Origin: a virus
Virus record (IMG/VR): IMGVR_UViG_3300038566_000113
Coordinates: 1 to 29,740 of that record
Strand: one strand, 5' to 3'
DNA: 29,740 bases
Below, piece after piece: positions 45-26,744 of this stretch. The position numbers were made by a program, and so were the translations under genes. The notes beneath the pieces were generated by a model. The model was given only the letters and a program-made list of their open reading frames with translations. It ran no database searches and was not told the DNA's origin. Position 1 is the first letter of the stretch. Every line of letters starts with the position of its first letter.

Positions 45-737
45 TTGTTGGTATTGACGCTGATGGTGGGCTGTAGTGGTAAGAACACACTGAGCATCAC
101 CGAGTCTAAAGATGCACTTGGTCAACCGATAATTAAGACTGAGTACGTTCTTTCAGACACTGGTATGTATCACAAGTCTGTATCTGAGAGTGACCAAGCG
201 AAGGCTTCTCTAGCGGAGACTAAAGCTACATCAATCAGTAACCAAGATCTCAGTGAGCTGTCTACTGATGCACAAGCTATCATTAAATACAAGAACTCTG
301 AAGAGATATCTAAGATCGAGGTGACCCCTTACAGTGGCGAAGCACCTACGACTGCCGCAGATATGGGTGTAGCTGCAATAGAGGTAGTTCCCGCAGTAGT
401 CTCTGGTACTGTGAAAGGTATAGCTATCGTAGAGGCTGGTAAGACTGTGCGTGAGGTAGTCAATAAAGATACCGTCAAGGTTGAAAGCTCTAAGGATACG
501 GCTGTTAGTATGAATCGTGAAGAGACACATCAAACACAGGTGGTCTCAGCAGCTCAGGAAGGTGGAGCTACAGGTGCACCACAACAGATAGGAGCGAAGG
601 AGCCAGTGACTCTGGAGTCAGAAGAGGGAATAGTAACCGACGCGAATGGTATGCCTTGTGATGGCGCTGACTGGGGTGTATATGGTGGTGAATGTATGTC
701 CAATGAGAGTGCCAGAGAAAGAGGTCTCTTAGAATGA
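45..737 (+). CDS. Putative lipoprotein, probably 5'-truncated
   Basis: The protein has no family I recognise. From the TTG at 45 it begins with a hydrophobic run that ends in LMVGC followed by SGK, which is a lipobox-like signal peptidase II site with Cys10 as the would-be lipidated residue. The frame is open upstream to the contig edge and reads PKLKEIGAG before the TTG. That would give the signal peptide its missing basic n-region, so the real start may lie outside the window. Against this, TAGGAG at 33-38 is a fair ribosome-binding site for the TTG. The mature part is polar, rich in T, S, V and E, and has two cysteines near the C-terminus. Its stop overlaps the next start (ATGA). It may be an envelope-associated or exclusion-type protein; the function is unknown. 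Confidence 0.6.
   Translation: MLVLTLMVGCSGKNTLSITESKDALGQPIIKTEYVLSDTGMYHKSVSESDQAKASLAETKATSISNQDLSELSTDAQAIIKYKNSEEISKIEVTPYSGEAPTTAADMGVAAIEVVPAVVSGTVKGIAIVEAGKTVREVVNKDTVKVESSKDTAVSMNREETHQTQVVSAAQEGGATGAPQQIGAKEPVTLESEEGIVTDANGMPCDGADWGVYGGECMSNESARERGLLE
607..620. repeat. Dispersed palindrome TGACTC-TG-GAGTCA, perfect copy
   Basis: Exact match inside the lipoprotein gene, read as (G)TG-ACT-CTG-GAG-TCA. It is the only perfect copy inside a plus-strand gene. Confidence 0.8.
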
Positions 738-925
738 TTAGCTATAAGGACATGACGTTCTGTACATTCTACAAGAGCTGCGCTGATGGAGACAAATGCT
801 TTAGGGCGTGCACTCCAGAGACGATACAGCAGTCAGTTCGCTTCGGGTTACCTATCAGTAGTTTTTGTAGTAAGCCAGATTGTTTCAAAAAGAAAGAGGA
901 GGAGGTATTAGTTAGTGTTCAATAA
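734..925 (+). CDS. Small six-cysteine protein upstream of ribonucleotide reductase
   Basis: The 63-residue product has six cysteines arranged as FC-x5-SC-x6-C-x3-C and, near the end, FC-x4-DCF, followed by a KKKEEE tail. The pattern resembles small Cys-rich proteins of other phages whose function is not known to me. It could bind a metal or act as a thiol partner. Its ATG overlaps the stop of the lipoprotein gene (ATGA), and its own stop at 923-925 overlaps the reductase start at 915, so the three genes look translationally coupled. Placement directly before a reductase that needs thiol recycling makes a redox role possible, but that is inference only. Confidence 0.7.
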   Translation: MISYKDMTFCTFYKSCADGDKCFRACTPETIQQSVRFGLPISSFCSKPDCFKKKEEEVLVSVQ

Positions 926-2588: not shown

Positions 2589-3015
2589 AGTATGCACTAG
2601 GTGTGAGGTTCGAAAGGATCTCACATCCTTCCACAAAGACAAAAGTACACCTGATGGCCTAACGCATGTATGTAAAGAGTGTCAAAGTGAGTACGCTAAG
2701 AGCTACAGGAAGAGGAACAGACAGAAGATTAAAGAGAAGAGACGAAAGTTTCTTATTGAGCAGAGAACAAAAGCTATTAAGTACAAAGGTGGTAAGTGTG
2801 CTCGGTGTGGCTACAACGATCTAACTTACCTAAGGGTCTTCCAGTTTCACCACTTAGATCCGAATGAGAAAGAAGTAGTCTTCTCGTTTGCTAGTAATAC
2901 TTTCGAGACATATAAGGAAGAGTTAGATAAATGCATCTTACTGTGTGCCAATTGCCACATGGCGGTACACGACGGTGCAGACATCACAGGTAAAGGAGGT
3001 ACATGCGGTGGCTAA
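2581..3015 (+). CDS. HNH homing endonuclease inserted after ribonucleotide reductase
   Basis: The 144-residue protein is a free-standing HNH nuclease. It has an N-terminal CxxC...CKEC zinc-ribbon-like segment (Cys5, Cys8, Cys31, Cys34) and a basic linker. The HNH core has CARC, FHHLD (89-93) and LCANCHMAVH (121-130). HNH proteins of this type usually end just after that last histidine. Here there are 14 extra residues, and the last eight (GKGGTCGG) nearly repeat the end of the reductase. I chose GTG 2581 over GTG 2560 because GGGTGGA at 2567-2573 sits 7 nt upstream and the overlap with the reductase stop (8 nt) equals the overlap at its own 3' end. It is expected to spread its own gene by cutting uninserted alleles. 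Confidence 0.85.
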   Translation: MSKVCTRCEVRKDLTSFHKDKSTPDGLTHVCKECQSEYAKSYRKRNRQKIKEKRRKFLIEQRTKAIKYKGGKCARCGYNDLTYLRVFQFHHLDPNEKEVVFSFASNTFETYKEELDKCILLCANCHMAVHDGADITGKGGTCGG

Positions 3016-3196
3016 GATGTATATCAGGAAAGTACATATAACTTGGGAAGATGGGACGGTCAATTTTTTTGAGTCTAAGAAGAACAGTACCTCAGGATCA
3101 TTATTGTTCTGTACGCAAGTTGACGATACAGAGGTGATCATTAATCTTTTGAATACTCGGTATGTTAAGTTTGATCCAGAGTCACTAAAAGATTAG
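3008..3196 (+). CDS. Hypothetical 62-residue protein
   Basis: The product (MAKMYIRKVHITWEDGTV...) is short, mostly beta-like and has no family I recognise. The start is the GTG at 3008, preceded by AAAGGAGGT at 2992-3000 with a 7-nt gap. That ribosome-binding site lies inside the duplicated reductase-tail sequence at the end of the HNH gene. A GTG further upstream (2945) lies deep in the HNH gene and is unlikely. The gene overlaps the HNH stop by 8 nt. Its own stop codon is inside the right-hand strand of the hairpin at 3179-3202. It was probably the direct neighbour of the reductase before the endonuclease arrived. Confidence 0.65.
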   Translation: MAKMYIRKVHITWEDGTVNFFESKKNSTSGSLLFCTQVDDTEVIINLLNTRYVKFDPESLKD

Positions 3197-3202
3197 TGAC
3201 TC
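3179..3202. terminator. Perfect 10-bp hairpin between convergent operons, likely bidirectional terminator
   Basis: GAGTCACTAA pairs exactly with TTAGTGACTC around a 4-base loop (AAGA). It covers the end of the plus-strand 62-residue gene and lies 10 bases from the end of the minus-strand 275-residue gene, where both operons should stop. No clear U-run follows on either strand, so it may need help from Rho or may act as an RNA 3'-end stabiliser. Its right arm is also the left arm of the palindrome at 3197-3210, so two mutually exclusive hairpins are possible. Confidence 0.6.
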
Positions 3203-3210
3203 CAGAGTCA
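3197..3210. repeat. Dispersed palindrome TGACTC-CA-GAGTCA, perfect copy
   Basis: Exact match in the intergenic spot where the two operons converge. It shares its left arm with the hairpin at 3179-3202. Confidence 0.8.
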
Positions 3211-3212
3211 GC

Positions 3213-4258: not shown

Positions 4259-4261
4259 ATC

Positions 4262-4654: not shown

Positions 4655-4655
4655 C

Positions 4656-7600
4656 TTATCCCTTTTGCTCCCTCAGCTTTTTCCTTTCTTTGGACTTAAT
4701 AGACCTTATAGTTTTGTTATCTATAATCTCTCCACCAGATTTCCTCTGGTCTCGATTGTACTTATTGATCTTCTTTCGAACCTCACTATAGTTACCATCC
4801 GAGACACTAGCTCTAATGTCCTTGTAGATGCTAGTACGAGTTCTATCTGATTCTTTACCCTTCCCTTCCGAAGTTCTAGAGTAAGCTAACTTCCCAACTA
4901 AAGGTACAGACTTCAGAGCACTATAGGTCATCTCTTTATCTGAGCTAACCATATTGTAGATGTCCTTCAGGAATGGGTCAGCCACACTGATACCCGGTGG
5001 TGTCAGTACGTCCTTGACGAAGGTAGCTATTGGTTGACCAGATCGAAACCCTTTGTCAACTGTATATCGACTAGCCATTCCTAGCTTCAGTAAGTTATCC
5101 CATACTTGATCTGAGAATGCATCGTCCCTTCCGAGAATCCAATCCTTTAGTTCATCAACAGAGGCGTTAGCTAACACCAGTAAAGGTACAAGAGTCATAA
5201 GATTCTTAGAGGCCTGAGCAGTGTTACCCTTCTGGTACTCACCGATGATCTCCCGCCTCATATTGTCCAAAGCTTTGATACCATATGATTTCAAGGTATA
5301 AAAGATCCTACCATTACCAGACTGAAGATACTGTTGAGGCATCTCCGATAGTGTTACTGGTTGAAACTTAGCTACACTCACTAAGGCGAAGTGCTTGACA
5401 TCCTGAGATATCTCACCCTTCTGTATGTCCTCCCAAGTTTTGGCTGCTGTCTCTGGAGTCAAGATCTCTTCATACTTCGAAACAAAGTCTTCCTTCGATG
5501 TACCTCTTGCTTTATTCAGAGCAGCCTGCATGTTAACATTCTTACCGAACTGATCCATAAAGTTAAGACCAGTCCACTTCATAGTCTTGTCTACCCACTT
5601 AGCTGTTGAGCCTTGAGCAAACTCCTTCAACACATGAGACATATCGAGATCTTTAGTTGTGATCTCTTTGTTACCAAAGATTGCTCGGATAGTATTGGTC
5701 GGTCCGTTCTCATACAGAGACCATACCAAGTCACCCAACTGAGTCACAGCATTCAAAGGAGAACCAAGAGCTGTGATAAGCCCTATGTCTCTCAACTTAG
5801 CTGCACCACCATGCATACCTCTTTGATTCAACCGAGACCTTAAGGCCTGAAGGAGAGCATCTTGCTGATCCTCAGGTAAAGAGTTATAATCCTTACTAAT
5901 CAGTTGAGAGATTGACTCCTCACTGACTTCAGCTATATCTCTGATCTCGTTAGTCTTAGTGTTTATCTCACCGAGGGTCGTCTGATACCCTTTAGTTCCT
6001 GGCTTCTGAGTCAACAGTTTCTTATGAAGTCTGTTGACATCTTTAGTCAGTCTCTTCCTAGCATCGACACCAACGAAGTCTCTGGTAGCGATAGCTTCAT
6101 TACCTTCGAAGATAGTGTCAACCAATGAATCGATTGGATTGTGATAGAACTCCATCATTGCCGGGTTAACCTTAGCAATGCTTCGACTCTTAGTAGAGGT
6201 TGGTATCTTAAGAGCAGTGGCTGGATTGTAACCACTGTTGATTATCTCTGCGATACGATCTTCCTTCTGCTTGTCACTTAGGTTGACATCTTCAAGTATA
6301 TCATCGAAGACACCCGTTCCTCCAGCTACCTCCTTCCCTTGTTGTTTAGCTTTAGTGGCTCTTATGTAAGCCATAAGCCCTTTGACATCCTTAACCTTAC
6401 GAGGATAGTAGTTATCAATACGGTTGAATAGGTTGAGCCCTACTCTCTCATAGTCCTTCTTGATACTATCGAGTACACCTTGAACCTTAGCAAAGTCTTG
6501 AGTCATACCTTTAGATCTCAGTAGAGCATTAAGATCCTTAGCATCCTCAGGATTGTTAGAGTTAAGAAGAGCATAGTTCATAAGCTTCTTCTCGTCATCG
6601 TTGAGCTTCTCATACTTCTTTACAAACCCTTCGATCTCATTACGATACTCTTGATTCTTCGAGTTTATAGTACTCTCCATCTCCATAAGCTTCGAGTAAA
6701 TCTTAGGAGCTATATCCTTGACCACTGAGGCTACAGGTTTGATGTACTTATCGACCTCTCTCAGTCCTTTCTTTAGAGGCTCTGTGAACCAATACTTACC
6801 TTGCTTCTCTTCAGCCTCTGTCTTCTTAATCCACTCTAAGGTTTTCTTCTGCGATGCAGTGAAGTCACTGTAGACTCCAGAGTCACCAGCAATCATCCCA
6901 CTCTCTTCCAAAGACATCCCTTGAGCTACCAGTTCAGCTTGCCGAGGGCTGGTAGAGGCGACACGCTTAGCTAATTCTATATGACTTAGATCCGCAGTGA
7001 TAGCCATGACTTCTTCAAGTGCACTGTTGTACTTCGATGGAAGCCGGAACCCTCTTCGAATAGCATTGACCACCTTATCCCATAGAGATTTGATTCTCCC
7101 AGTCCTTTCACCTTCAGGAACAGGGATTGCTTTAAGGTCTGCTTGAATCTCAGGCTCAGTCATAGCCATACTGATAAATTCAAAAGGACTCTTAAAGGTA
7201 TACTGTTGACGCTCTGTCATCTTCTGCCCTTTAAGATACCCCTCATAAGCTTTAGCTACTGACTTAAGGTTCTGAACTACTGGATGATTTAGGCCTAACT
7301 GTCGCATCTCTCTAACAGTTACACCATGCATCATCTCATGAACTATCGTTCTCTCTGTAGCACCAGGACCATAGTAAAAGGTATGATCCTCACTGAGATA
7401 CATACTATTCTCTTGCTGCTGATTAGCTGGAGCTTGAGACATAGGTTTGATCTGAAAGGTTCTAAGCTTCTCTTCAGGTGTCAGACGTAACAGAAACTCC
7501 ATAGCATCCCTAACTGAAGGACCAACGTTCTCTCTATCAGCCTTCAGCTCTTGAAGCATAGTATAACCATCAACTACCCTTGTACCACCTTCGAATCTCT

Positions 7601-10385
7601 TAGCTACAGTATCAGTAGTTTCTCCATCAGATACAACTACATCATCGTAAGTAAACTCCCCTTCATCATCGATACCTTCCATGTTCAGTTCAGTGCTTGT
7701 GAGGTCTTCTTCTTTCTCTACTGAACTATACTCCTTCTTAGCCTCTACATCTACTGCCTTTTGTAGGTCTTTCAACTCAACCTTACCTGAAGACACACCC
7801 TTAGCTGCTTCAGCTAAAACCTTAGGACTACCTTCCACAGACACCCAAGTACCATCTTTACTCTGGATGTTCAGCGTCTTCCCTTCAGAATCTAATACAT
7901 ACTGATTACCTATTTGATCCGAACCAGACTGAAGAGTGTCGGTCATTGCTGTCCACTTAATCTTCCCAATCTTAGGAGCTGTAGATTTTCGTGACGAAGA
8001 GGCAAAAGTTACTTCAGGTTTAATAAGATCAATATCAACCTCAGATTCTATACCTTTCTGTGTGGCCTCAGCCTGAGCCTGCTCTGCTAACGTTTCAAAA
8101 GCAGCAGCTCTCCCTTGCCCTTTAGGTAGCTTAGAGGATATCTTCTTGATCCAGGAATCCTTAGCCTTCTGATCCATACCTTCTTGATTCTCAACAAAGT
8201 ACTTCATATCTTCGGAGAGAGCAAAAGCTTTGTCTTCAGATAAGTTCTCGATCTCTTGATTCACAATCTCTTGTGCACCAGTGATATCGCCACTATCTAT
8301 CAGCTTCTTAAAGGTACTCTTCTTACCAGTAGGCATCTCCTTAGACATCTTAATGATCTCAGATTTGATAGCCTTAGTATCTTTATCGATAAACATCTGG
8401 GTAACCGGGCTTACTTCAACCTCAGTCCTCTCTGTCTCTGGAGTCAGTAGGGATTCAGGTTCAGTCTCCTTAAGTTCCTGAGCTTCCTCAGCAGCTATAA
8501 ACTGATCCTCTACGCCACCAACAGCAGGTACAGTAGTGTCACCCTCATAAGCAGAACCAGCATCTACATCCGGCAAGGCCTCCATTTGCCCCTCAGTTAC
8601 ATCTTCTCCTTCAACAGGAGCCTCAGTACCTTCTGGAGATACATAAGCACCAGGGGCCAATTTTGGGCCTTCTAGAGGGGTTGCCTCTACACCAGTAGAT
8701 ATACGAGAGATAAGAAGCTCTTGTTCAGGAGTCTTCTCTACACCATCATTCTCCCTCCAGTAAGCATCCTCCATCAGCTCACGTTCTTCCGGGAGTATTG
8801 AGCCACCTTCAACCAACTGATCTACAGTAGTCCGGATCTCAGATCGGGTCTTAACATTCTCAGCTACCTGAGTCCTAAGGTTCTCTGCTTCAGCCTTGAT
8901 GAACTCATATGAATCTGTAAGATCTATCTCACCTGCTGTAGGAGCCGGTGGTGTTGCCGCTGCCTTCTCCCTCTGCTGTCTCTCCTGTCGTTGAGCGATA
9001 GATCGAGCACTCTCCTGTTTAGCTCTAGCCTCTGAAGATACATCATCGATAGCTGGAGTAGCATTAGATCGTACAGCATTCTCTGGACGGAAGGCGCCTG
9101 TAGAGTAGTCAGTCTCTTCAGCTGCCATCTGAGCTGAGCCTTTCTTATTTATAGCTTGTGAGTTTCTCTTCCGAGCCTCTTGCTCTTGGAATGCAATAAC
9201 TAGAGGATCATTAAGATCTTCGTTCTGATCATAAGGAGCAGGAGGTAATAGTTGACCATTGATCTTCTGAGTCAATGCATCGATATCTCCTAGAGGATTG
9301 ATTCGTTCAGCCGCATCCAGCTCATTCTGTCTTACCTCCTCCATCATATCGATCATATTAACATTCAGATCCATAGGTTTACCAATGTTAGCTTTGGCAA
9401 ACTCTTGGAGACCTTTAGCTAACTCAGGATCTGATTTCTCTATGTTTGCGCGGAGTGCATTGACTGCTCTCACCTGTCGCCCTGCATCACCTGACTGAAG
9501 ATCTGAAGCTAACCGAGCCTTCTGTCTAGCGTTGTACATCTGACCACCAGTAGCAAAGATACCAGACATAAACAGGGATGGGATGATAGAGTCTATAGCA
9601 GCATCAGTAACTGAAGTGTCACCCATACCATAGGTTAAGTCCGTCTGTGCACCAAGACCAGATTGAAGTGCTTCAGTACTACCCTCAACTGCCATAGTCT
9701 TACCATAGGCCTTAGCTATATCTTTACCTGAGACCTTCAGTAAGCCTTTCAATGTTTGAGACAATGGTTTAGTGAAGAAGCTACCGAGTCCAGCAGTATA
9801 TGCTTCGATACCAGAGGCAACACCCTCAATACCACCTTCGATCAAACCTTGCTTTAGTGCATAGGTATGAGCTGACTCCTCATCGAGACCATTAGCCAAT
9901 GCAGCTTCCTTGGCCTCACCGTAAGTACCAGCTCCGAAGAGGCCAAGTGTACTTAGTATGCCACCAATGGCAGCACCAGGGACTGAACCGATAACACCGA
10001 ATGCAGAACCTATGGCAGCACCAGCAGCAGCACCGGGAGCGAAACCAGCTAGTGAAGGAACAATAGATTCCATAGCTCCTTGCCATCCTTTACCTACTGC
10101 TCCTTTCTCCTGGTAGTACTCACTCTCATCGGGTTTGAAGAACTCCGTCTCTTCCCGAGTCTTAGTTGCCCACTCATCCAACCCTGTTTCGAAGGGAGTT
10201 AATACTTCAAATGCCTTAGCACCTTTCCCAACCAAACCTAATACACCACGACCTAATGAACTTGCTGTATCTCCAACAAACCCACGCTCATCAGTATAAG
10301 GTAGTCCTTTGTTGTTGGAAGTGACAGTAGGGCTAGCGACCACCAGCCCTTGATTATCACCATACAGATCGTCTAAGTATCCCAT
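4656..10385 (-). CDS. Giant internal/ejection virion protein with zinc-metallopeptidase domain
   Basis: At 1909 residues this is the largest gene and holds the place of T7 gp16, the large ejection protein. An N-terminal Gly/Ala-rich hydrophobic region (about 108-154) resembles segments of phage DNA-transfer proteins. Residues 330-1000 are polar and low-complexity. HEMMH at 1016-1020 (bases 7326-7340) is a HExxH zinc site, and FEFISMAM with Glu1069 fits the third ligand of a gluzincin-type fold. The same HExxH...EF pattern is known from metallopeptidase domains of large polyvalent phage proteins. The C-terminal half is long, helical and charged, with a short hydrophobic stretch late (NLMTLVPLLVLANA), and ends in a basic tail. 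I saw no transglycosylase motif. The start ATG has AAAGGAG 10 nt upstream. It is probably injected with the DNA. Confidence 0.8.
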   Translation of the reverse strand: MGYLDDLYGDNQGLVVASPTVTSNNKGLPYTDERGFVGDTASSLGRGVLGLVGKGAKAFEVLTPFETGLDEWATKTREETEFFKPDESEYYQEKGAVGKGWQGAMESIVPSLAGFAPGAAAGAAIGSAFGVIGSVPGAAIGGILSTLGLFGAGTYGEAKEAALANGLDEESAHTYALKQGLIEGGIEGVASGIEAYTAGLGSFFTKPLSQTLKGLLKVSGKDIAKAYGKTMAVEGSTEALQSGLGAQTDLTYGMGDTSVTDAAIDSIIPSLFMSGIFATGGQMYNARQKARLASDLQSGDAGRQVRAVNALRANIEKSDPELAKGLQEFAKANIGKPMDLNVNMIDMMEEVRQNELDAAERINPLGDIDALTQKINGQLLPPAPYDQNEDLNDPLVIAFQEQEARKRNSQAINKKGSAQMAAEETDYSTGAFRPENAVRSNATPAIDDVSSEARAKQESARSIAQRQERQQREKAAATPPAPTAGEIDLTDSYEFIKAEAENLRTQVAENVKTRSEIRTTVDQLVEGGSILPEERELMEDAYWRENDGVEKTPEQELLISRISTGVEATPLEGPKLAPGAYVSPEGTEAPVEGEDVTEGQMEALPDVDAGSAYEGDTTVPAVGGVEDQFIAAEEAQELKETEPESLLTPETERTEVEVSPVTQMFIDKDTKAIKSEIIKMSKEMPTGKKSTFKKLIDSGDITGAQEIVNQEIENLSEDKAFALSEDMKYFVENQEGMDQKAKDSWIKKISSKLPKGQGRAAAFETLAEQAQAEATQKGIESEVDIDLIKPEVTFASSSRKSTAPKIGKIKWTAMTDTLQSGSDQIGNQYVLDSEGKTLNIQSKDGTWVSVEGSPKVLAEAAKGVSSGKVELKDLQKAVDVEAKKEYSSVEKEEDLTSTELNMEGIDDEGEFTYDDVVVSDGETTDTVAKRFEGGTRVVDGYTMLQELKADRENVGPSVRDAMEFLLRLTPEEKLRTFQIKPMSQAPANQQQENSMYLSEDHTFYYGPGATERTIVHEMMHGVTVREMRQLGLNHPVVQNLKSVAKAYEGYLKGQKMTERQQYTFKSPFEFISMAMTEPEIQADLKAIPVPEGERTGRIKSLWDKVVNAIRRGFRLPSKYNSALEEVMAITADLSHIELAKRVASTSPRQAELVAQGMSLEESGMIAGDSGVYSDFTASQKKTLEWIKKTEAEEKQGKYWFTEPLKKGLREVDKYIKPVASVVKDIAPKIYSKLMEMESTINSKNQEYRNEIEGFVKKYEKLNDDEKKLMNYALLNSNNPEDAKDLNALLRSKGMTQDFAKVQGVLDSIKKDYERVGLNLFNRIDNYYPRKVKDVKGLMAYIRATKAKQQGKEVAGGTGVFDDILEDVNLSDKQKEDRIAEIINSGYNPATALKIPTSTKSRSIAKVNPAMMEFYHNPIDSLVDTIFEGNEAIATRDFVGVDARKRLTKDVNRLHKKLLTQKPGTKGYQTTLGEINTKTNEIRDIAEVSEESISQLISKDYNSLPEDQQDALLQALRSRLNQRGMHGGAAKLRDIGLITALGSPLNAVTQLGDLVWSLYENGPTNTIRAIFGNKEITTKDLDMSHVLKEFAQGSTAKWVDKTMKWTGLNFMDQFGKNVNMQAALNKARGTSKEDFVSKYEEILTPETAAKTWEDIQKGEISQDVKHFALVSVAKFQPVTLSEMPQQYLQSGNGRIFYTLKSYGIKALDNMRREIIGEYQKGNTAQASKNLMTLVPLLVLANASVDELKDWILGRDDAFSDQVWDNLLKLGMASRYTVDKGFRSGQPIATFVKDVLTPPGISVADPFLKDIYNMVSSDKEMTYSALKSVPLVGKLAYSRTSEGKGKESDRTRTSIYKDIRASVSDGNYSEVRKKINKYNRDQRKSGGEIIDNKTIRSIKSKERKKLREQKG
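5448..5461. repeat. Dispersed palindrome, one mismatch
   Basis: Reads TGTCTCTGGAGTCA (third base A to T) inside the giant ejection gene. Confidence 0.6.
6872..6885. repeat. Dispersed palindrome, one mismatch
   Basis: Reads AGACTCCAGAGTCA inside the giant ejection gene. In the gene it is read in the phase GAC-TCT-GGA-GTC (Asp-Ser-Gly-Val). Confidence 0.6.
8433..8446. repeat. Dispersed palindrome, one mismatch
   Basis: Reads TGTCTCTGGAGTCA inside the giant ejection gene, the same variant as at 5448. Confidence 0.6.
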
Positions 10386-10400
10386 CTTCTACTATCTCCT

Positions 10401-11462
10401 TTAGTATGTTCTTATAGCACCAGCACCAATAGGTGTGATGCCTTGAGCTGCTCTCTCTGCTTCTTCTTTATCTGCTTGCTCTTGAGGTGACAATGCTACC
10501 GATACACCTGGAGCAATAGTCTTAGTAGGTCCACCTAATACTCCACCGCCTCCTGACTCTGGAGTCACAGTACCAACGTAGACCATAGGGAAGACTGTCT
10601 TGTACATCTCTGGATCTTCCTTCTTCATTGCTGCCAGCGTAGCCTGTCGCTTAACCTCGGGCAACTCACCAATGTCCGTTGCTATTTGTTGAGGTGTCAC
10701 AGTTCTCTTACCTTTCTTGGTTGGAACCATAGCACTCAACATAGAGCTAGTAAGATAATCTGTAAGTACTGATGGTGCTACGTTAGGTGTTACTTGCTTA
10801 CCTGTCATCTCAAAGAGCATCTTAGCAGCTGTACTACCATCAATATCTTTAGTCTGAGATATAGCTAACTCCTTAGCCTTCAAGTAGTTGGCCGGGGTAA
10901 GTGTAGTATCCTTAGGCACAGGGATACCAAGAGCTTGAGCTTTAGTCTTCCATTTCATCGTCTCTTTCTGATCTTCATCAATATCAGTCCGAGAGTCAAT
11001 ATGAGCCATAGCAGCTGTAGTCTTCCTTTGAGTCTCAGCATCCAACAAAGATATCTGAGCTTTAGTTTGAGCTTCAGTCATACCTACCGCATAGTCTAGT
11101 TTCCTCTTAGCAGCAGCATCTTCCAAAGCAATAGATTCAGGAGATGCCTGTACCTTCCGCTCTGCTAATGCAGCTGCCTCAGCGGAACCAGCAGCACCAG
11201 CAATCTGTTCCTTCTGGAGTTGTGCCCTAAGCTGTATCTGCTCTGGGCTCATCTGCTGTTGAGCTGTTTGTTGCTGGAGACTCAGCTGGTTCTGCAACTT
11301 CTCTTTCCCCATTAGTTTCTCGAAGTGTAGCTTACGCTCCATTTCAGCTGTCTTCCCGGCTTGATCCAGGTTCCATTCCCTTTGTTTCTTCTGTTGCTCA
11401 CCATAGGTGTTAGCTGATCCAGCAGCAAACCCAAGAGCACTCATCGCCCAATCCAAAGCCAT
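10401..11462 (-). CDS. Ejection-type virion protein, Q/A-rich helical, 353 residues
   Basis: The N-terminus (MALDWAMSALGFAAGSANTYGEQQ) has the small hydrophobic Ala/Gly patch common in phage internal proteins, followed by a long Q/K/E-rich coiled coil (about 25-170) and a mixed C-terminal part with a Gly/Pro linker (ESGGGGVLGGP). No enzymatic motif is visible. It lies directly before the giant ejection gene, in the place of T7 gp15, so an internal core or ejection role is likely by position. The 3' end contains a perfect copy of the dispersed palindrome (10554-10567). Function beyond this is not recognised. Confidence 0.7.
   Translation of the reverse strand: MALDWAMSALGFAAGSANTYGEQQKKQREWNLDQAGKTAEMERKLHFEKLMGKEKLQNQLSLQQQTAQQQMSPEQIQLRAQLQKEQIAGAAGSAEAAALAERKVQASPESIALEDAAAKRKLDYAVGMTEAQTKAQISLLDAETQRKTTAAMAHIDSRTDIDEDQKETMKWKTKAQALGIPVPKDTTLTPANYLKAKELAISQTKDIDGSTAAKMLFEMTGKQVTPNVAPSVLTDYLTSSMLSAMVPTKKGKRTVTPQQIATDIGELPEVKRQATLAAMKKEDPEMYKTVFPMVYVGTVTPESGGGGVLGGPTKTIAPGVSVALSPQEQADKEEAERAAQGITPIGAGAIRTY
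10554..10567. repeat. Dispersed palindrome, perfect copy
   Basis: Exact TGACTCTGGAGTCA near the 3' end of the 353-residue virion gene, read on the minus strand as Thr-Pro-Glu-Ser. Confidence 0.8.
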
Positions 11463-11463
11463 C

Positions 11464-13010: not shown

Positions 13011-13012
13011 CG

Positions 13013-13531
13013 TTATACCTCCAGGTCCATGAAGTATTTGACTGCTCTCTTCCTTGTAGCATTGTCAGGGTTCGTGTGATGTAGCTTATAGTAAGCCTCC
13101 AACATCTTAGTCTTATCCCCTGAAGCCATGATGTCCTTCATATACTTATCGCTTCCTTTCTTCTCAAGCATCTCCCCTAAGAATAGTAAAGTCTGTTGTT
13201 CATTATCGAGTACTGTTACATCTTTGTTCTCTCTAAGCTCTGCCATCCATGGTAGCTCACCAAGTGTCCGAGCTAACCTATTCAGTGCAGGTTCTATCGA
13301 TCCCTTTACGAACTGATACTTCCCTGCTGCACTAGAGGCTTCTTTACCTTTCTGTGGTATGTTCAGTGCTGTAAGATCTCCATTACTCTCTACCTGCCCA
13401 ACAACCTCAGCGAACTCTAAGAGATTATCATAGGCAGTAGACGGGTCCACTCCGAGTCGTTCAGCATGCTTAGAGATAAGTGTCTCAGTGTCTCCTGACT
13501 CTGGAGCCATAACTTCCTCTTCTAGTGGCAT
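13013..13531 (-). CDS. Small lytic transglycosylase/lysozyme-like virion protein
   Basis: The 172-residue protein shows the pattern of a goose-lysozyme/SLT-type fold: VVGQVESNGD (catalytic-type Glu48 followed by Ser49) and, about 20 residues later, AAGKYQFVKGSIEPAL (68-83). This corresponds to the ES...G.YQ(F/I) signatures of lytic transglycosylases. It should cut peptidoglycan locally during DNA entry. In T7 this activity is the N-terminal domain of gp16; here it is a separate gene placed well upstream of the giant protein. Its ATG overlaps the stop of the preceding small gene (TAATG). An endolysin role is less likely given its position in the ejection block but cannot be excluded. Confidence 0.65.
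   Translation of the reverse strand: MPLEEEVMAPESGDTETLISKHAERLGVDPSTAYDNLLEFAEVVGQVESNGDLTALNIPQKGKEASSAAGKYQFVKGSIEPALNRLARTLGELPWMAELRENKDVTVLDNEQQTLLFLGEMLEKKGSDKYMKDIMASGDKTKMLEAYYKLHHTNPDNATRKRAVKYFMDLEV
13496..13509. repeat. Dispersed palindrome, one mismatch
   Basis: Reads TGACTCTGGAGCCA near the start of the lytic transglycosylase-like gene. Confidence 0.6.
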
Positions 13532-13692: not shown

Positions 13693-13699
13693 CAGCAGA

Positions 13700-14623: not shown

Positions 14624-15035
14624 TGTATTTCCCTCTGTTAATATAGTCTTGTATTGTAAAGTAATACATCCTCGTTCCATCCTGGAGATCTATGTAGTTC
14701 ACTTTGTCTCCTTCCCTACCACCTATGAATCTCCTCCAACCTTTCCGATTCGAAGGAGTAAGCCCGAGTATCAGTGTGGCCCCTTCCTTCTCAAAAAGAT
14801 GAGTCATGGCCTCTTCGAGTAACTTGATAGCTTCCATTCCTTTCCGAGGTTTCGCATTGATGTGAATGTGATGTACAGTTGGTTGTCCTTCATACACTGA
14901 GACGAAGCTGTCTCCAGAGTCAGAAAGATAAAGGTGAGTGCATCTCTTTCTTATTGCCTCTAAGTGATGCTCCTCACCATTGATCTCAAGTATCTCTAAG
15001 ATCTTAGGCATATCTAGAATCGTAGCTACCTTCAT
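14613..15035 (-). CDS. GNAT-fold acetyltransferase-like protein (T7 gp13-like)
   Basis: The 140-residue protein follows the GNAT plan: an N-terminal strand and helix (VATILDMPKILEILEI), strands with YEGQPTVHHIHI, then a motif-A-like KPRKGMEAIKLLEEAM, strand ATLILGL and a motif-B-like NRKGWRRFIGG helix. T7 gp13, an assembly protein of similar size between the tail-tube genes and gp14, also looks like a diverged GNAT, and the gene order here is the same (before the gp14-like gene). It is therefore more likely an assembly factor than a small-molecule acetyltransferase. It overlaps the next gene by 11 nt. Confidence 0.65.
   Translation of the reverse strand: MKVATILDMPKILEILEINGEEHHLEAIRKRCTHLYLSDSGDSFVSVYEGQPTVHHIHINAKPRKGMEAIKLLEEAMTHLFEKEGATLILGLTPSNRKGWRRFIGGREGDKVNYIDLQDGTRMYYFTIQDYINRGKYNGI
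14909..14922. repeat. Dispersed palindrome, one mismatch
   Basis: Reads TGTCTCCAGAGTCA inside the gp13-like gene, in the Asp-Ser-Gly phase. Confidence 0.6.
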
Positions 15036-15037
15036 CT

Positions 15038-16829: not shown

Positions 16830-19139
16830 TTATCGTTTGAGTTCTACTTGGTGTATACTTGGTGTAGCTGTATTAATATTAGTTTTAAAGTGGTACGTAC
16901 TTTGTGCGACAACCACGTCCAAGTGGCTTTTGATATTTGTTGGTGGAATCTTAGATGTAAATGTGTCGATTCCATTAAGACTAAGACTTAGATTAACACT
17001 GCTTGTACTTTGAGCACCCACCCCTATCCTATGACACCTAGAAACAGGTACAAAAGCCTCTACACTGTAGCCTGTAAAACTACTTCCAAATGCTCCACCA
17101 ATAGTTATGGTTTTATCGAATGTAATATAGCTCCCACTCATCCTGAACTCAACTATATCACCACTGCTATCAGTAAGAACAAACCCAATCCACCTCTTAT
17201 GTGTCACTGTTGCAACTAGATTGGCACCATTAACATCTGTATCATATTCAACCCCATAAGTGTCATCGTTGTATCTAACAGCAAAGAAGTTGTAGATCGT
17301 ATTGATCGTAGGGGAACTTATGACCACATTAGTAGTCCCAGTGACTGCAATAGCCTGGGTCAGTGTGTCGTCCATACAACTTAGTGGATTCACATCAACA
17401 TCAGCAACCCCACTGTATACAAGCTCACCACCAAAGATACCACCAGTTACCTCTGCACCTACTACAGGTTGATTCACTGGTTGATGTACGATTGGTGCTT
17501 CGACTACAGCATCCTCTTGCCAGACCTTCAGTTCAGTATAAATCTCCGGATCGGCTGGTTGGTTAATACCTAGGCCAAAGGTAGCAAGACCCTCTTGTAT
17601 CCAGTTTGTTACCTTAATGACTGTCTGCTCTGTCAACACTACACGCCCAGAGACAATAGGTTTATCCATAACCCTATTTACTGAGTCTTGATCTCTTGTT
17701 ACAGCAGATCTCAATAGCTCTGTATCGTCTGACTTTCGAATAGAGATACTTCTACCGTACCTACCTTGTATAGGTGCAGACGCTTCCATGTAGTATGTAC
17801 CAGCAGGAAGAGTAACTTCGTTAGAGGCTAAGGAAGCCCCAGAGATCTCATTGACTACAACAGCATTAAGGTCTCTATCGTTATCTCCAGCTACACTTGT
17901 CCCACCGTTAGTTCCTTGAGCCTTCCTATCCTGTACATGCATAAAAGGCTTAGTAATCACAGGATTCTGAGCACTAGCACTGACAGCCAACCATCCTTTG
18001 GTAGCATCGGTATACACCAGAGTTACATAAGCTCCCCTTGTGTCTACCTTCAAGCTATCATTAACACCTTCTATCTTCTCAGTACCATCTGGAACCAAGA
18101 GACAGTGAAAAGTTCCAAAGGTCTGTGCGTAATCCTTGATTGCCACAGTCATACCAGCAGTACCTACAGGAAGTTGAACCTCTACGGCACCACCAGAAGT
18201 ATCTACAGGATAACCCTTGGCATCCTCAGCAGTGAAGTCAGTGGATTGAGCGGAAGAGGACCAATCGAGTCCACCACCACCACCACCTATAGATCCCCAT
18301 TCTCCATCAACATATCCCTCAAAGCCTGGAGTATCTGTATTGAATCTAAGATGTCCTTCAGCAGGAGTATCTCTTTGAGCAGTAGTACCAGCAGGGATCT
18401 CAGCTTGTCCAGTAGCGGAGGTCCGAAGTACTGACTCCAGAGACACTTCAGAGGCTTTAGCGGCCCAGTGAAGTGCACTATACTTACCCGGTTCTACCTC
18501 TACATCTTCAGCTTCTTCAGCCCATTTCTCTGCTTGTACTTCAGCAACCTCAGCTCCCGCTTGAGCCGCTTGAGCATCTGTAACATTATTACCTGTAGTG
18601 ACTACATCAGCATTAGTAAGTACTACATTAGCTGCTGTCTGTGCGATATCAGCTTGAGTTTGAACTACGTCAGCAGCGGTACTTGCAGCATCAGCAGCGG
18701 TTAAGAGAGAGTACTCCCGAGCACTGGTAGTGATCGTGGTGACTCCATCAGCCTCTGTGTCAACTCCACCGACACCTTGGGCCCATGCTTTCGCTTCTTC
18801 TGTGTAAGCCTTAGCACTGTAGAGAAGAGTAGCTACACCATCAGCCCCAACTACCAATACCCCTTGATCTTTAGAGGCGAAGTTCTTAGACTCTTGAGAC
18901 CAAGCATAAGCAGAGTACCCTGTGATCGTAGAGCCACTGCTATTATCTGTGATCAATACTCCTACTTCTTCTACTGCCCAGTCGATTGAGGTAGACTGCC
19001 CCTCTTCCACCGCAGAGAGCCTTGTCTCTATAGTAGTATTAAAAGAAGTCTCTAAACGAACTATCAGATCGTTGATGTCGGCTTCATCTGATCTGTCTCC
19101 GTTGCTAACCTCTAAACCTGTTGTATCAAATATTGCCAT
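16830..19139 (-). CDS. Tail fibre / receptor-binding protein
   Basis: The 769-residue protein has a fibre layout. The N-terminal 60 residues probably anchor it to the tail. There are helical repeats of the WSQESKNFASK and YTEEAKAWAQ type common in phage fibres, then a run of heptads at about 147-195 in which Thr-x-Ala-Asp/Asn-Val/Ile recurs every seven residues, typical of a trimeric coiled coil. The fibre motif PAGTTAQRDTPAEGHLRFNTDT with FEGYVDGEWGSI follows at about 249-283. After a Gly6 linker there are beta-rich domains to the end that should carry receptor specificity. In T7 the fibre gene follows the ejection genes; here it precedes them. The C-terminal 200 residues look unrelated to anything I know. 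Confidence 0.8.
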   Translation of the reverse strand: MAIFDTTGLEVSNGDRSDEADINDLIVRLETSFNTTIETRLSAVEEGQSTSIDWAVEEVGVLITDNSSGSTITGYSAYAWSQESKNFASKDQGVLVVGADGVATLLYSAKAYTEEAKAWAQGVGGVDTEADGVTTITTSAREYSLLTAADAASTAADVVQTQADIAQTAANVVLTNADVVTTGNNVTDAQAAQAGAEVAEVQAEKWAEEAEDVEVEPGKYSALHWAAKASEVSLESVLRTSATGQAEIPAGTTAQRDTPAEGHLRFNTDTPGFEGYVDGEWGSIGGGGGGLDWSSSAQSTDFTAEDAKGYPVDTSGGAVEVQLPVGTAGMTVAIKDYAQTFGTFHCLLVPDGTEKIEGVNDSLKVDTRGAYVTLVYTDATKGWLAVSASAQNPVITKPFMHVQDRKAQGTNGGTSVAGDNDRDLNAVVVNEISGASLASNEVTLPAGTYYMEASAPIQGRYGRSISIRKSDDTELLRSAVTRDQDSVNRVMDKPIVSGRVVLTEQTVIKVTNWIQEGLATFGLGINQPADPEIYTELKVWQEDAVVEAPIVHQPVNQPVVGAEVTGGIFGGELVYSGVADVDVNPLSCMDDTLTQAIAVTGTTNVVISSPTINTIYNFFAVRYNDDTYGVEYDTDVNGANLVATVTHKRWIGFVLTDSSGDIVEFRMSGSYITFDKTITIGGAFGSSFTGYSVEAFVPVSRCHRIGVGAQSTSSVNLSLSLNGIDTFTSKIPPTNIKSHLDVVVAQSTYHFKTNINTATPSIHQVELKR
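18432..18445. repeat. Dispersed palindrome, one mismatch
   Basis: Reads TGACTCCAGAGACA inside the tail-fibre gene. Confidence 0.6.
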
Positions 19140-19166: not shown

Positions 19167-20975
19167 TTACCACTTCGTACCGTTCAATGTATAAAGTACG
19201 ATAGCGTTGTGCACCACGTGTGGAAGATGGTGTCGGGTTGTGCTTTTAAACTGTATTGCCATGTTCACCCCAATACCTGTAATATAAGAGTACTCTTGGT
19301 TCACCGCTCCAGCACCACCCCAAACAAATGTCCCCCATATACCTTCACCCCATATAGCGGGCTCATTCCCTTGAGGGTCTGACTCGTACAGTATACTCTT
19401 AGGTGTATCGAGACCCTGGTAATCATAGCTCGGTCTCATAGAGAACACCTGACCTTTGTTGGCTGTCAACTCAAACAGTAGCCTCTGGAAAGTCTTGTTG
19501 TTAGTTGGTGTCCCATAGTTATGAAAAGCCGTAGTGAATCTAGAAGATATATCATTGCCATCGAAAGAAGCAGCAGACTGATGTTGTAGTCTAAGGTAAT
19601 TATCTTCTTTAGTAGTAAAGAGTCTCTTAGATTCTTTGGTTACTTCCTCCACTGTATTCAATGTGATCCCTAAGTTAAAGAGTGACACTCCTCGAACTGA
19701 GAACTCCCCTCGATAATCAGGCTCACAGGTCACTACAATTCCAGAGCCACTAGCGAAGTACACTATGTATTGAGATTTCTCCCGATCTAGCACTGCTCCT
19801 ATGATCTGATCTTTGTTAGCTTGGTATGTCTTTTGAATCTTTCGACTTAAGTTGGAGATATCAAAGTCTCCATACTGGTCAGCAGCTTCTAAGTAAGTAA
19901 TCCCCCGCTCATCACAGAACAAAGTCCTACCGAGTATCCTAGCTGCTGATCCTCTGATGGCTCCAGAGACAGCTGAGAAAGTATCCTTACGTTCGTCAAA
20001 CCCGGAGATTGTAGCATCGGTAACCTTAATAATGTCTATCCCTTTCTCTTGGAATACAGTAAGAGATGAAGGAGACACTACCATATCTGTGATCTCACCG
20101 CCAAGCCAGAAGACACCACCAGAGGTTACTGCTGGATCATAGGCGAAAGGATCTCCACTATGAGAGACAAACAGTGTCCCGTAAGGGAAGGCTATATGAA
20201 GTCTCTGATTGAAGATCATAGAGGACATCGGGTATCCTTCTAGTATAGAACTGTCAGAAGGAAGTACTGGTGTCGCTCCTGGGTATTGTGGGCTGTTAGC
20301 TTCAATCAACGAGGTACAATGGTAAAGCCCTGTGTTATCTTTATAAAGTATTACAGCTGCACTAACCGAGTTACAAAGGATTACTATCTCGTCGTTTGGT
20401 GTAGAACTATTAGCGACTAAGGGGAAGTACTGCATGCGCCCTTTAGTTATCTGGTAGTTATATCCTGCATCTATGCCAGCTCCCTCAGATATTGCAGGGA
20501 ACGAGGCGACACTAGCCCATCCTGTGGCAGCATCCATCTTCCATAGGCTGTGGTCTCCAGTGCTTGAGGTATACCCTATAACAAAGTAATCCCCATTGTA
20601 ATCAAAAGCTCCCTTCAGGTAATCAACTCCAGTGGGTCCTACTATCTGATCTCTCCGATCCTCTCTAGCTGTATCATCTACTTGAGAGAAATCATCTGGA
20701 TCGGTAAACACTAGAGGAACTGTTGAGGCCCATGTTACATCTAAAGTATCTCCAGGATTATTAGGGTTATCTATTGTGACTGTAGTTCCATCGATTCTCT
20801 CGAAGCCCATAGTGCTCCGGTAACCATGGAACTCACCACTAATCTCCTCATAGTTAACCATATCGTAACACTCACCTGCCTTAATCTCTAGGTTACTAAG
20901 GGCTTCGTTAATCCCTCCAGTAAACACTATAGTCTTTGGTTTAGGTGTAGTGAAAGATGGTGTCTTATTGTACAT
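19167..20975 (-). CDS. Tail tubular protein B-like nozzle protein (T7 gp12-like)
   Basis: The 602-residue protein begins with KTIVFTGGINEALSNLEIKAGECYDMVNYEE. This is an opening typical of podovirus tail-nozzle proteins, in which FxGGIN...L..GE....NYE precedes a beta-propeller. The rest is beta-rich with repeated short strands and Trp/Tyr/Gly turns, as in T7 gp12 and P22 gp10. It should form the hexameric tip of the short tail below the gp11-like ring. The order gp11-like then gp12-like after the capsid gene is the T7 order. The ATG is preceded by AAGGGGAA within the 15-nt gap after the upstream stop. Confidence 0.75.
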   Translation of the reverse strand: MYNKTPSFTTPKPKTIVFTGGINEALSNLEIKAGECYDMVNYEEISGEFHGYRSTMGFERIDGTTVTIDNPNNPGDTLDVTWASTVPLVFTDPDDFSQVDDTAREDRRDQIVGPTGVDYLKGAFDYNGDYFVIGYTSSTGDHSLWKMDAATGWASVASFPAISEGAGIDAGYNYQITKGRMQYFPLVANSSTPNDEIVILCNSVSAAVILYKDNTGLYHCTSLIEANSPQYPGATPVLPSDSSILEGYPMSSMIFNQRLHIAFPYGTLFVSHSGDPFAYDPAVTSGGVFWLGGEITDMVVSPSSLTVFQEKGIDIIKVTDATISGFDERKDTFSAVSGAIRGSAARILGRTLFCDERGITYLEAADQYGDFDISNLSRKIQKTYQANKDQIIGAVLDREKSQYIVYFASGSGIVVTCEPDYRGEFSVRGVSLFNLGITLNTVEEVTKESKRLFTTKEDNYLRLQHQSAASFDGNDISSRFTTAFHNYGTPTNNKTFQRLLFELTANKGQVFSMRPSYDYQGLDTPKSILYESDPQGNEPAIWGEGIWGTFVWGGAGAVNQEYSYITGIGVNMAIQFKSTTRHHLPHVVHNAIVLYTLNGTKW

Positions 20976-21663: not shown

Positions 21664-21906
21664 TTACTCCTTTTCTAGTGTTGCTTCTGACTCTGGAGTC
21701 ACTACTTTCTTTCTTGATCGCTTAGGCTTGTTGTCAGGATCATTGAAGCACATATCTCCATCCTGGTAATCACCGAGGATCTGGACATCTACTCGATACT
21801 GAATGGCACTAAGTTTCTTTACCATCTCAACACCATTGTTACCTTTGATCCAAACTAGCTTATCTGTTTTCACTGGAGCCTCTTGGCCCCCTCTCATATT
21901 TCCCAT
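21664..21906 (-). CDS. Hypothetical 80-residue protein after the capsid gene
   Basis: A small protein with a beta-like middle (KLVWIKGNNGVEMVKKL, YRVDVQILGDYQDG) and a very basic then acidic tail (NKPKRSRKKVVTPESEATLEKE). It starts just beyond the terminator behind the capsid gene, with AAGGAG 10 nt upstream of the ATG. Position between the capsid and the tail adaptor suggests a head-completion or capsid-accessory role, not proven. The tail codes a perfect copy of the dispersed palindrome (21688-21701). Confidence 0.6.
   Translation of the reverse strand: MGNMRGGQEAPVKTDKLVWIKGNNGVEMVKKLSAIQYRVDVQILGDYQDGDMCFNDPDNKPKRSRKKVVTPESEATLEKE
21688..21701. repeat. Dispersed palindrome, perfect copy
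   Basis: Exact TGACTCTGGAGTCA at the 3' end of the 80-residue gene behind the capsid gene. Confidence 0.8.
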
Positions 21907-24206: not shown

Positions 24207-24392
24207 TTAGTCGAAAGAACTAATTAATGCTTCAAGTACTTGGGCTGCCCCTTGTGCCCGGTGAAGCTGTTCAATGTTAGAGGCACTCTTCAGTATATCT
24301 AATTGAAACTGAAGTTTATCCTTAAATACTTCCTTCTTATCGTTCACCGTACCTGTACGGATCTTGATCTTCTCTTGTTTATTGAAGGTCAT
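24207..24392 (-). CDS. Hypothetical 61-residue protein after the portal
   Basis: The product (MTFNKQEKIKIRTGTVNDKK... ending ALISSFD) is basic in its first third, then helical with QFQLDILKSASNIEQLHRAQGAAQVLEAL. It has no family I recognise. It starts on the base next to the portal stop. The 81 bases between it and the scaffold gene hold no further gene and only a weak short inverted repeat. It may be a head-assembly accessory by position. Confidence 0.55.
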   Translation of the reverse strand: MTFNKQEKIKIRTGTVNDKKEVFKDKLQFQLDILKSASNIEQLHRAQGAAQVLEALISSFD

Positions 24393-26744
24393 TTAGATAC
24401 CTTCCCCTTCTTGTAACTTCAGTGCAATCTCCCTAGTCTGTTTGTCCATATCATTCTTCTGTGAACTAGCGGCTATCTCACCTTGCTGCTTGATAGATTG
24501 CTCTTTAAGCTGTAGGTCTAGTGCTTTCAACTGTTGATCAATAGCTTTACGTTGATCTCTCAGCTGCTCAGCTTGTGCCTTAACAGTCTGAGTTAACTCA
24601 TTCATCTGCTGTTGGCCTTGGACCTGAATAGATGTAGCTTGTAGTGAAGCCTGTTGCTCGGCTTGCTTCTCTTGTTGAGCTGCTTGCTGAGCCTGAGCTT
24701 GTCTACCCTCTGCGACCTTCTCACGCTTCTTCATATCCAATCGAGTCGGTACGATATCTTCAATGAACCCAAGGTCCTTAGCCATCTCACGAAGGAGTGC
24801 AGCTCGACCTTCAGCTCCCATGATCTCTTGATCAATTGGGTTAGCTGTAATCTGGAGGAACTCATTCCTTTTGATCTGCTCTGCACCTTTCAACGTCAGT
24901 GTTGATGAACCTAACGCATCTACATGAGGGTCACCAGTATAAGGTACTTTGTTGTCTATGATGTTCATGTAGAACTGATGTTCAATCCGAGGGATAATGA
25001 CTCCAGAGTCAATATTACGGATAGCATCTTTGATACCTTTTGAAGCACTCTCCAGTAGAACACTAAGACCTGAGAATGTAGCAGCTGCTTGACCTGAGTT
25101 CTCATTACCATATGCGTATCGTGGGATACCTGTGGCATCGTCAGCTCTCAGTTCAAACTCTTTATAGACTGTCAGTAGCTCATTAGCATTAGATGTCGGT
25201 TGGAAGAAGTTGATACCTCGACCACCTGCACCTGTTGGATCTACATTCAACTGCCAGATCTTGAATGGATAGATATCTTCTAGATCAGACATATCTGCTA
25301 TCCTCTCTACGTACACCTCAATCTGTGGGCCAGCTGCTAAAGCCATGTTGTTCGCCAGTGCTCTTGCAGTAGCGTTACACATACGTTGGATATCTCTCAT
25401 CAAGTCCGGAAGTGATCGGCCCCATACTGAGCCTGGACGTTGTTGATAGGATGCAGTGTAATAAGGTCTTCGAAGCATAGGGTCTTGGTTGAGTATACAC
25501 TTGATCGTATGGTTACCAACAACGATGACCTCACATTCAAACTCTACCCAATCATTAGCCGACAATACTTCCAGATCCTGTACACCCCAATCCTTAAGTA
25601 TCCTTGCTTTGATAGGTCCAAAGAAGTGGATACCATGGTAGATGTTTTGGTTAGCATCAAAGGTGTCTCCACGTTTCTCTTGATCTGCTTTCTCCTGCTC
25701 TATCCCTGAGTCGAGATAATCATACACATCCATAGGACCTTCTTCAAGAACCTTAACTATATTCTCGCTCTTGTAGTCAGTACCAACAGACAGTAGGTCA
25801 TTCAGTTCCAACCCCGTAAACCGGAGGTGTTCACATAAAGCGCCATCGTAGAGGGATGTAGCTTCCGGGGCTGGATACATATCATATGGAGATACCCTTC
25901 TATTCTTATAGCAGTATTCATGTGGTGAGGGGACCATAATACCATTTAGGTAAGTCATCTTAGTACTACGAGTAACAATTGGTCCTTTCATGAATGCAGA
26001 TGGATACACAACAAAATCATCGATGAACTGAGAGAAAGCTTCGTACCACTTGCCTTCTATTAGTTGATCATTGATCTGTCGCTCCATGACTTTCATATCG
26101 AACTCAGCTTCCTTCTGTAACTCTTGAAAGATAGCTTCTTCAATGTCTCGTTTATTCTGATTGATTTCTCGGATAGTATCTTGTGCGTCACTGGCTTTAG
26201 GTGGAGAGGGAGCATTCTGTCCTTCTGCTTTACTCTGCTCTACCTCTTTAGCTCTAGTCTCTACAACTAATGCTTCGAACTCCTTAGAGATCGCACCTGC
26301 TATCGTAGCCTTAACGTCTGCTGGAAGATCTGGAATTGGTGTAGGCCTAATGGTCCAGCTTTTAAGATTCGTAGCTAACTCAATATCTCTAATCCATGAG
26401 GCAGCTGCTCTACATTTTGTAGCTGTGATATTCATAAAGAGATCCGAGCCACCTTGTTTCGTAATGGCTGCAAGCTCTTTGGCTGAATACTCACCGTTGT
26501 ATTGCTCTGATGCTTGAGTGATCATCTCTTCGATACCACTCCGTCTCTTTGCTTCCTTATTAATCCTGAACTGTCCAGTTACATAGGAAGTAACAGCATC
26601 TAGGAAAACCTGAGGCTGCTCATCGAGAAGAGACATTTGATTACTCTCTTCCTCAATCAGTAACTTCAGATCTGAGATCCCTAAGATTTCTACTCCAGGA
26701 GAGTCATCATAGAGATCGGTTGTATATTTATCCATCATACCCAT
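24393..26744 (-). CDS. Portal protein (head-tail connector)
   Basis: The 783-residue protein lies between terminase and scaffold and should form the dodecameric packaging and ejection gate. Portal-like parts are SDLFMNITATKCRAAASWIRDI near residue 100 and a clip/stem region with YPSAFMKGPIVTRSTKM. Another is PYYTASYQQRPGSVWGRSLPDLMRDIQRM followed by a long helix, a common portal signature. The last 130 residues are a Gln-rich coiled coil, longer than in T7 gp8 (about 536 residues), and may form a barrel inside the head. The start ATG-GGT-ATG-ATG overlaps the HNH stop by 10 nt, with AGGAGA in the end of the HNH gene as ribosome-binding site. Confidence 0.85.
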   Translation of the reverse strand: MGMMDKYTTDLYDDSPGVEILGISDLKLLIEEESNQMSLLDEQPQVFLDAVTSYVTGQFRINKEAKRRSGIEEMITQASEQYNGEYSAKELAAITKQGGSDLFMNITATKCRAAASWIRDIELATNLKSWTIRPTPIPDLPADVKATIAGAISKEFEALVVETRAKEVEQSKAEGQNAPSPPKASDAQDTIREINQNKRDIEEAIFQELQKEAEFDMKVMERQINDQLIEGKWYEAFSQFIDDFVVYPSAFMKGPIVTRSTKMTYLNGIMVPSPHEYCYKNRRVSPYDMYPAPEATSLYDGALCEHLRFTGLELNDLLSVGTDYKSENIVKVLEEGPMDVYDYLDSGIEQEKADQEKRGDTFDANQNIYHGIHFFGPIKARILKDWGVQDLEVLSANDWVEFECEVIVVGNHTIKCILNQDPMLRRPYYTASYQQRPGSVWGRSLPDLMRDIQRMCNATARALANNMALAAGPQIEVYVERIADMSDLEDIYPFKIWQLNVDPTGAGGRGINFFQPTSNANELLTVYKEFELRADDATGIPRYAYGNENSGQAAATFSGLSVLLESASKGIKDAIRNIDSGVIIPRIEHQFYMNIIDNKVPYTGDPHVDALGSSTLTLKGAEQIKRNEFLQITANPIDQEIMGAEGRAALLREMAKDLGFIEDIVPTRLDMKKREKVAEGRQAQAQQAAQQEKQAEQQASLQATSIQVQGQQQMNELTQTVKAQAEQLRDQRKAIDQQLKALDLQLKEQSIKQQGEIAASSQKNDMDKQTREIALKLQEGEGI
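24998..25011. repeat. Dispersed palindrome, perfect copy
   Basis: Exact TGACTCCAGAGTCA inside the portal gene, read as Asp-Ser-Gly-Val, a different phase from the copies at 10554 and 21688. Confidence 0.8.

Follow-up and report, generated by a model that had tools for sequence, protein, structure and literature searches.

The stretch of viral DNA analysed here (IMG/VR record IMGVR_UViG_3300038566_000113, record class linear, 29,740 bases; hereafter the window) carries dispersed copies of a 14-bp interrupted palindrome, TGACTC-YR-GAGTCA, five of them exact and six with one mismatch. On balance we consider that these sites probably form a genome-wide array of operators for a dimeric, probably phage-encoded DNA-binding protein, most likely one acting on transcription. 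That the motif is a real genomic system is settled, at the level of sequence comparison, by the relatives of the window: among them the positions of the sites turn over while the array persists, and in a sister clade the two arms of the palindrome have changed together.

The 14-bp array in the window and its relatives

The copies and coordinates listed in a first-pass annotation of the window (the 11 above and a two-mismatch copy at 19958) are all correct, and one further two-mismatch copy at 3584 (TGACCGTAGAGTCA), which chance could explain, was overlooked. Chance is insufficient for the set as a whole, as that annotation held: when a YR centre and up to two mismatches are allowed, 13 copies are observed against 0.9 expected from dinucleotide shuffles, and none of 100 shuffles reached 13. 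Codon-preserving shuffles likewise leave the copies unexplained, with five exact and 11 within one mismatch observed against 1.05 and 1.29 expected, about one of each expected value being the intergenic copy at 3197 that this shuffle leaves in place; the maximum among 300 such shuffles was two exact copies and three within one mismatch. For coding DNA alone the figures are four and 10 against about 0.05 and 0.3. All but one of the 12 listed copies lie within genes (3197 is the intergenic one) and the coding copies occupy two codon phases, which confirms the earlier description and, together with the codon-preserving shuffle, rules out codon bias or a protein motif as their origin. The spacing noticed at first pass also holds for the 12 listed copies, which are evenly distributed (gaps of 1413-3523 bp, coefficient of variation 0.33 against a simulated median of 0.86, P=0.0004); even spacing was found in relatives G038 and G004 as well.

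Close relatives were found by terminase and portal searches and one IMG/VR motif scan; genes were called by a simple script, and the genic or intergenic status of some sites in relatives is provisional. Enrichment over shuffles was seen in every motif-bearing contig tested, the counts within one mismatch of the consensus TGWCTCYRGAGWCA being 31 against 0.4 in G001, 22 against 0.1 in G002, 10 against 0.1 in G014, 13 against 0.1 in G005, 10 against 0.1 in G004 and 9 against 0.2 in the L229 contig, and the relative G007 (60 kb, portal 47% identical) has no copy within one mismatch (0.4 expected). Not every record counts as independent: G038 and G009 were recovered from a single metagenome and possibly represent one phage, and G002 looks almost identical to G003. 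The centre is YR in 99 of 99 full TGWCTC-NN-GAGWCA sites; CA and TG centres are both present in both orientations, and the arms are symmetric. The motif has a sharp edge, with an information content of about 1.2-2 bits within the 14 bp and near 0 beyond, where there are only weak flank preferences (in the window clade, a weak one three bases outside). A search with the 16-mer TGACTCCATGGAGTCA gave no match.

The group of the window includes at least L024 (12.9 kb), G014 (L074 plus L077, 18.1 kb), L025, L085 and L098, a lower bound in so far as it draws on the matches listed in a scan of viral contigs for the CA-centred form TGACTCCAGAGTCA; a further contig with phage replication genes, L119, is tied to the group only by three copies and by the relationship of those genes to the ones in the sister clade. 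Exact copies occur in all of the listed contigs, seven of them in G014, which has two variants besides. When homologous positions were mapped through codon alignments, the sites at 5448 and 14909 were found unchanged in G014 and that at 24998 unchanged in L024 and L098, in gene pairs where only 0.5-2.6% of 14-mers are unchanged. At the G014 counterpart of 607 all 12 arm bases are intact and the centre has changed from TG to CA, replacing Leu (CTG) by Pro (CCA). The intergenic copy at 3197 also has a counterpart in G014; other window copies have been lost or moved in the relatives, which hold copies elsewhere. Occupation of equivalent positions in close relatives, whose absence the first-pass annotation named as a refutation, was found for some comparable sites; others are missing there. 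When screened by tblastx, the tandem hairpin clusters that contain the 14-mer in L030, L040, L118 and L122 were not similar to the window.

A portal profile search returned 80 loci. Those with a portal 43-48% identical to that of the window include L160, L168/L169, L170, L172, L174 and L229, and these carry TGTCTC-YR-GAGACA instead, with the 6-2-6 layout kept and positions 3 and 12 switched. Scanned to completion for TGTCTCTAGAGACA, the full set of viral contigs yielded 68 stretches, the multi-copy ones almost all from this sister clade; most of the distant relatives examined have no array. The commonest variant in the window, TGTCTC..GAGTCA, is a hybrid of the window-type and sister-clade half-sites, as would be expected if the protein recognises each half-site. 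What is shown is thus the array together with its conservation, turnover and co-variation between clades; the comparisons with relatives lend strong support to the proposal, made at first pass, of a DNA-binding or condensation-type site in place of a protein motif, with turnover under a persisting array, the flipped centre and the switched arms all pointing the same way. Taken as a whole, that first interpretation is partly supported.

Early gene X and the role of the array

The window record does not reach the early end of its genome (the early half is missing), and the same is true of its closest relatives. The two ends of G001 overlap by 123 identical bp, and this record is probably a complete genome of 57.5 kb. 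In G001 and G038 the sites span early and late genes, at intervals of about 1-2 kb in early and middle genes and closer together at the early end. All motif-bearing records that reach this end (G001, G002, G003, G005, the L229 contig and G038) contain a gene, here called X, of about 190-245 aa. X is absent from all motif-free relatives searched, including some 20 records of 38-68 kb, and G038 was found by the motif alone and then shown to contain X. Sites closely flank X in G001, G002, G038 and the L229 contig. Site density up to 3 kb from X is 1.8 (G001), 1.2 (G002) and 1.2 (G038) per kb and is lower farther off (0.3-0.6 sites per kb beyond 3 kb in G001 and G002); the trend with distance, taken by itself, reaches significance in G001 (P=0.001) and in the L229 contig (P=0.004) but not in G002, G038 or G005. 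A search for more relatives with X as query gave nothing new. This distribution suggests early gene X as the best candidate for the site-binding protein.

From the symmetry of the sites, the flexible YR step, the free orientation, the tolerated half-site change and the absence of extended homology we infer that a dimeric DNA-binding protein occupies the array. Sites with the consensus TGWCTCYRGAGWCA would be bound by a sequence-specific symmetric dimer, which probably bends the DNA at the central pyrimidine-purine step and is probably phage-encoded and made early, X being the likeliest known gene for it. The array would be genome-wide, with one site per 1-3 kb and a tendency to greater density at the early end, and would most likely serve, whatever the orientation of its sites, as a stoperator-like roadblock or silencer for RNA polymerase travelling along the DNA; a bound protein reaching about 1-2 kb would explain both the even spacing and the denser early end. 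Since most window sites are genic, promoter-like matches at the early ends are at chance level and no integrase was found (no PF00589 match in 10 records), the sites are unlikely to be promoter operators for lysogeny. The same 10 records have no HTH_3 match above cut-off, the weak matches being to a sigma-like ORF. This ORF is present in motif-free G007 too, and with the symmetry of the site it rules out a phage sigma-factor promoter. More tentatively, it is possible that the uncharacterised family X binds the evenly spaced 14-bp array and builds a chromatin-like or transcription-braking structure over the entire genome of a phage that appears to be lytic, while the site arms and the protein co-evolve from clade to clade.

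Several observations weigh against the operator array as we read it. X matches no family in Pfam, PHROG or NCBIfam and nothing significantly in the PDB, and two AlphaFold models of it were unusable (pLDDT 38 and 43). The association of X with the motif comes from one clade, the records of the window clade stopping short of the early end, and two enzyme genes (a MoxR-type AAA protein and a CobT/VWA protein) are distributed nearly as X is, so that the link between X and the motif is suggestive and not proof. Even spacing fails in G001, G002, G005 and the L229 contig (L229c), where the sites cluster, and promoter-like matches near the early end occur at chance frequency.

The main rival, to which we prefer the roadblock or silencing array and which we regard as rather improbable, is an array that organises the genome: the sites would load a clamp or bridging protein, working like ParB/KorB or a nucleoid protein, by which the phage DNA would be compacted, segregated, protected or packaged, transcription being affected only indirectly. 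Even genome-wide spacing in some members, a focus of density at one locus in others and the presence of sites in early and late genes alike, mostly away from promoters, would all suit such a role, but no ParB_N domain was found in the 10 phage records (those of the window clade stopping short of the early end), and the sole match among 11 records searched lies elsewhere in a metagenome-assembled genome (MAG), off its phage contig.

It is very unlikely that the sites act in transcripts as RNA hairpins (in processing, termination or translation). A site is self-complementary on either strand, but in TGTCTC..GAGTCA the stem has a T-T mismatch at its middle, and G014 keeps two such copies unchanged; moreover no listed window-clade copy switches both sides, no compensatory double changes were seen within a clade, there is no U tract, and both orientations occur. 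Little more can be said for a small dispersed insertion repeat or an over-represented host word lacking a phage function, which we hold to be a shade less probable still. Several non-conserved copies do lie in gapped, variable protein regions, but the flanks of the copies share no sequence, and at 24998 the relatives differ by substitutions with no indel. A portal search of bacterial genomes found only two MAG contigs, and a Flavobacteriaceae MAG has nine copies on its phage contig against one in the remaining 2.8 Mb, so that the motif is not generally frequent in that bin, although the bin need not be the host.

The two least probable readings are about equal. In the first, a methylation switch, pairs of GANTC would be CcrM targets controlling binding or protection, and the exact window-clade sites do have two GANTC each, while the cultured phages nearest by portal infect Rhizobium and other alphaproteobacteria. 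The statement made at first pass that every copy holds two GANTC is nevertheless wrong: there are two in six copies (the five exact ones and 6872), one in five copies and none in 19958. Sister-clade sites (TGTCTCYRGAGACA) lack GANTC and form the same array, which refutes GANTC/CcrM as the shared feature, and a search of 10 records gave no N6/N4 methylase (PF01555). In the second, replication or recombination sites (origin-like, or recombinase targets with a 2-bp centre like a serine-recombinase crossover), the flips of the centre between homologous places and, in some members, the concentration of sites around a single locus would find an explanation, but recombination between direct or inverted copies would delete or invert parts of the genome, and the gene order of the relatives is collinear.

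The sites and their surroundings

The gene content of the window is podovirid-like, and the phages that carry the motif are uncultured and probably short-tailed. In the window the + strand encodes ribonucleotide reductase along with small genes, and the - strand has the genes for terminase, portal, head and tail; the two operons converge near 3.2 kb. The exact site at 607..620 (TGACTCTGGAGTCA) lies in a lipoprotein-like ORF (45-737, + strand), and its flipped counterpart is at G014:15561. Between the convergent operon ends is the exact site at 3197..3210 (TGACTCCAGAGTCA), which has an intergenic counterpart at L077:9021 (G014:12535). Three one-mismatch sites are within a 1909-aa gene: that at 5448..5461 (TGTCTCTGGAGTCA) has 14 of 14 bases the same in G014, and those at 6872..6885 (AGACTCCAGAGTCA) and 8433..8446 (TGTCTCTGGAGTCA) are not kept there. 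The gene at 10401-11462 contains an exact site at 10554..10567 (TGACTCTGGAGTCA), and the orthologous G014 gene has its own exact copy elsewhere with a flipped centre. Further one-mismatch sites are at 13496..13509 (TGACTCTGGAGCCA), at 14909..14922 (TGTCTCCAGAGTCA, again 14 of 14 bases the same in G014) and, within a tail-fibre-like gene, at 18432..18445 (TGACTCCAGAGACA). The two-mismatch site at 19958..19971 (TGGCTCCAGAGACA) is the weakest and is not kept in L024. Near the 3' end of the gene at 21664-21906, the exact site at 21688..21701 (TGACTCTGGAGTCA) is absent in L024, and in L085 an exact copy with the centre flipped lies at roughly this position, in an intergenic stretch. The exact site at 24998..25011 (TGACTCCAGAGTCA), in the portal gene, is the same in L024 and L098 and lost in L025, L151 and L152. 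Pairs of sites exactly 24 bp apart were found three times, at G001 39424/39448, G001 48937/48961 and L049 255/279 (L049 is apparently unrelated).

One L024 copy is inside a LAGLIDADG-like ORF, in an insertion interrupting the major capsid gene (L024 5617-6537). The major capsid genes of G004, G005 and G007 also appear to be interrupted by insertions with LAGLIDADG-like ORFs, and the insertions in these several members are probably group I introns. Unusually long ribonucleotide reductase genes occur in L077 (9268-11931, 887 aa; reads as intein-containing) and G002 (2092-5748, 1218 aa); the 557-aa reductase of the window belongs to a different type and is close to the one in G001. In motif-free G007 the region at about 9500-15800 has many tiny adjacent ORFs with similar lysine-rich tails (LIEKK, LKVKE). 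At the right end of the window (29289-29725) there are five tRNA genes (Ser, Ser, Tyr, Pro, Leu), and at its left end (1-17) the contig begins with GTTTCCCAGTCACGATC, which has no second occurrence in the window. We take this to be a common random-PCR/SISPA primer tail, and the first bases of the window are therefore probably an amplification artefact.

Comparison with known systems

Some distant relatives have arrays of their own. Rhizobium phage RHph_TM27A (L147, 1-50000), the best cultured portal match at 32% identity, has dispersed GTTACC-N6-GGTAAC (its 50 kb contain 15 exact copies and 35 within one mismatch, where 0 and 0.1 are expected), an independent array which differs from the present array in its arms, its 6-bp centre and the absence of gene X; a literature search found no paper on that phage. 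Roseobacter phage CRP-1 (L149) has four exact copies of GTCCAA-N2-TTGGAC (at 429, 1059, 2228 and 6868; 0.003 expected), with the same 6-2-6 layout and other arms. Such arrays may therefore be scattered through the wider group with different words.

Two other systems offer partial parallels. The stoperators of cluster A mycobacteriophages (L5, Bxb1) are 24-34 genome-wide repressor sites thought to halt transcript elongation; they are asymmetric, oriented with transcription and mainly intergenic, and serve lysogeny with a helix-turn-helix (HTH) repressor (PMC3029335). The sites described here are by contrast symmetric, in both orientations and mostly intragenic, and the 10 records lack an integrase and an HTH_3 match over cut-off (the early half of the window being missing). 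The KorB operators of plasmid RK2 may sit more than 1 kb from their target promoters, KorB sliding and silencing at a distance (PMC11790492). KorB is a functional analogue acting at more than 1 kb, although it is a ParB-family CTPase clamp whereas these phage records have no ParB_N.

The nearest known system, by analogy of layout, is the dyad array of the cluster O mycobacteriophages. Corndog has 34 copies of a 17-bp dyad, TGTTCGG-N3-CCGAACA, some of them genic and denser at one genome end; few are at promoters, the phages are without integrase, and the authors predict a dimeric binder and call the function unknown (PMC4351075). Both arrays consist of many genome-wide copies of an interrupted palindrome with nearly invariant arms, a variable centre and no meaning attached to orientation. 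They differ in that cluster O phages are unrelated and long-tailed and have TGTTCGG arms where ours are TGWCTC, and in that the present array has arms that change together from clade to clade, a centre that is YR without exception, even spacing in part of the genomes and a linked candidate early gene. Genome-wide dyad arrays in phages have thus been noted before and their function left open; what this clade adds is a set of conserved positions, their turnover, a switch of arms from one sister clade to the other and an early gene as candidate, by which the role of genome-wide palindromes in apparently lytic phages becomes testable. If they do serve as a transcription brake or as phage chromatin, this would be a control of viral genomes unlike promoter-by-promoter regulation.

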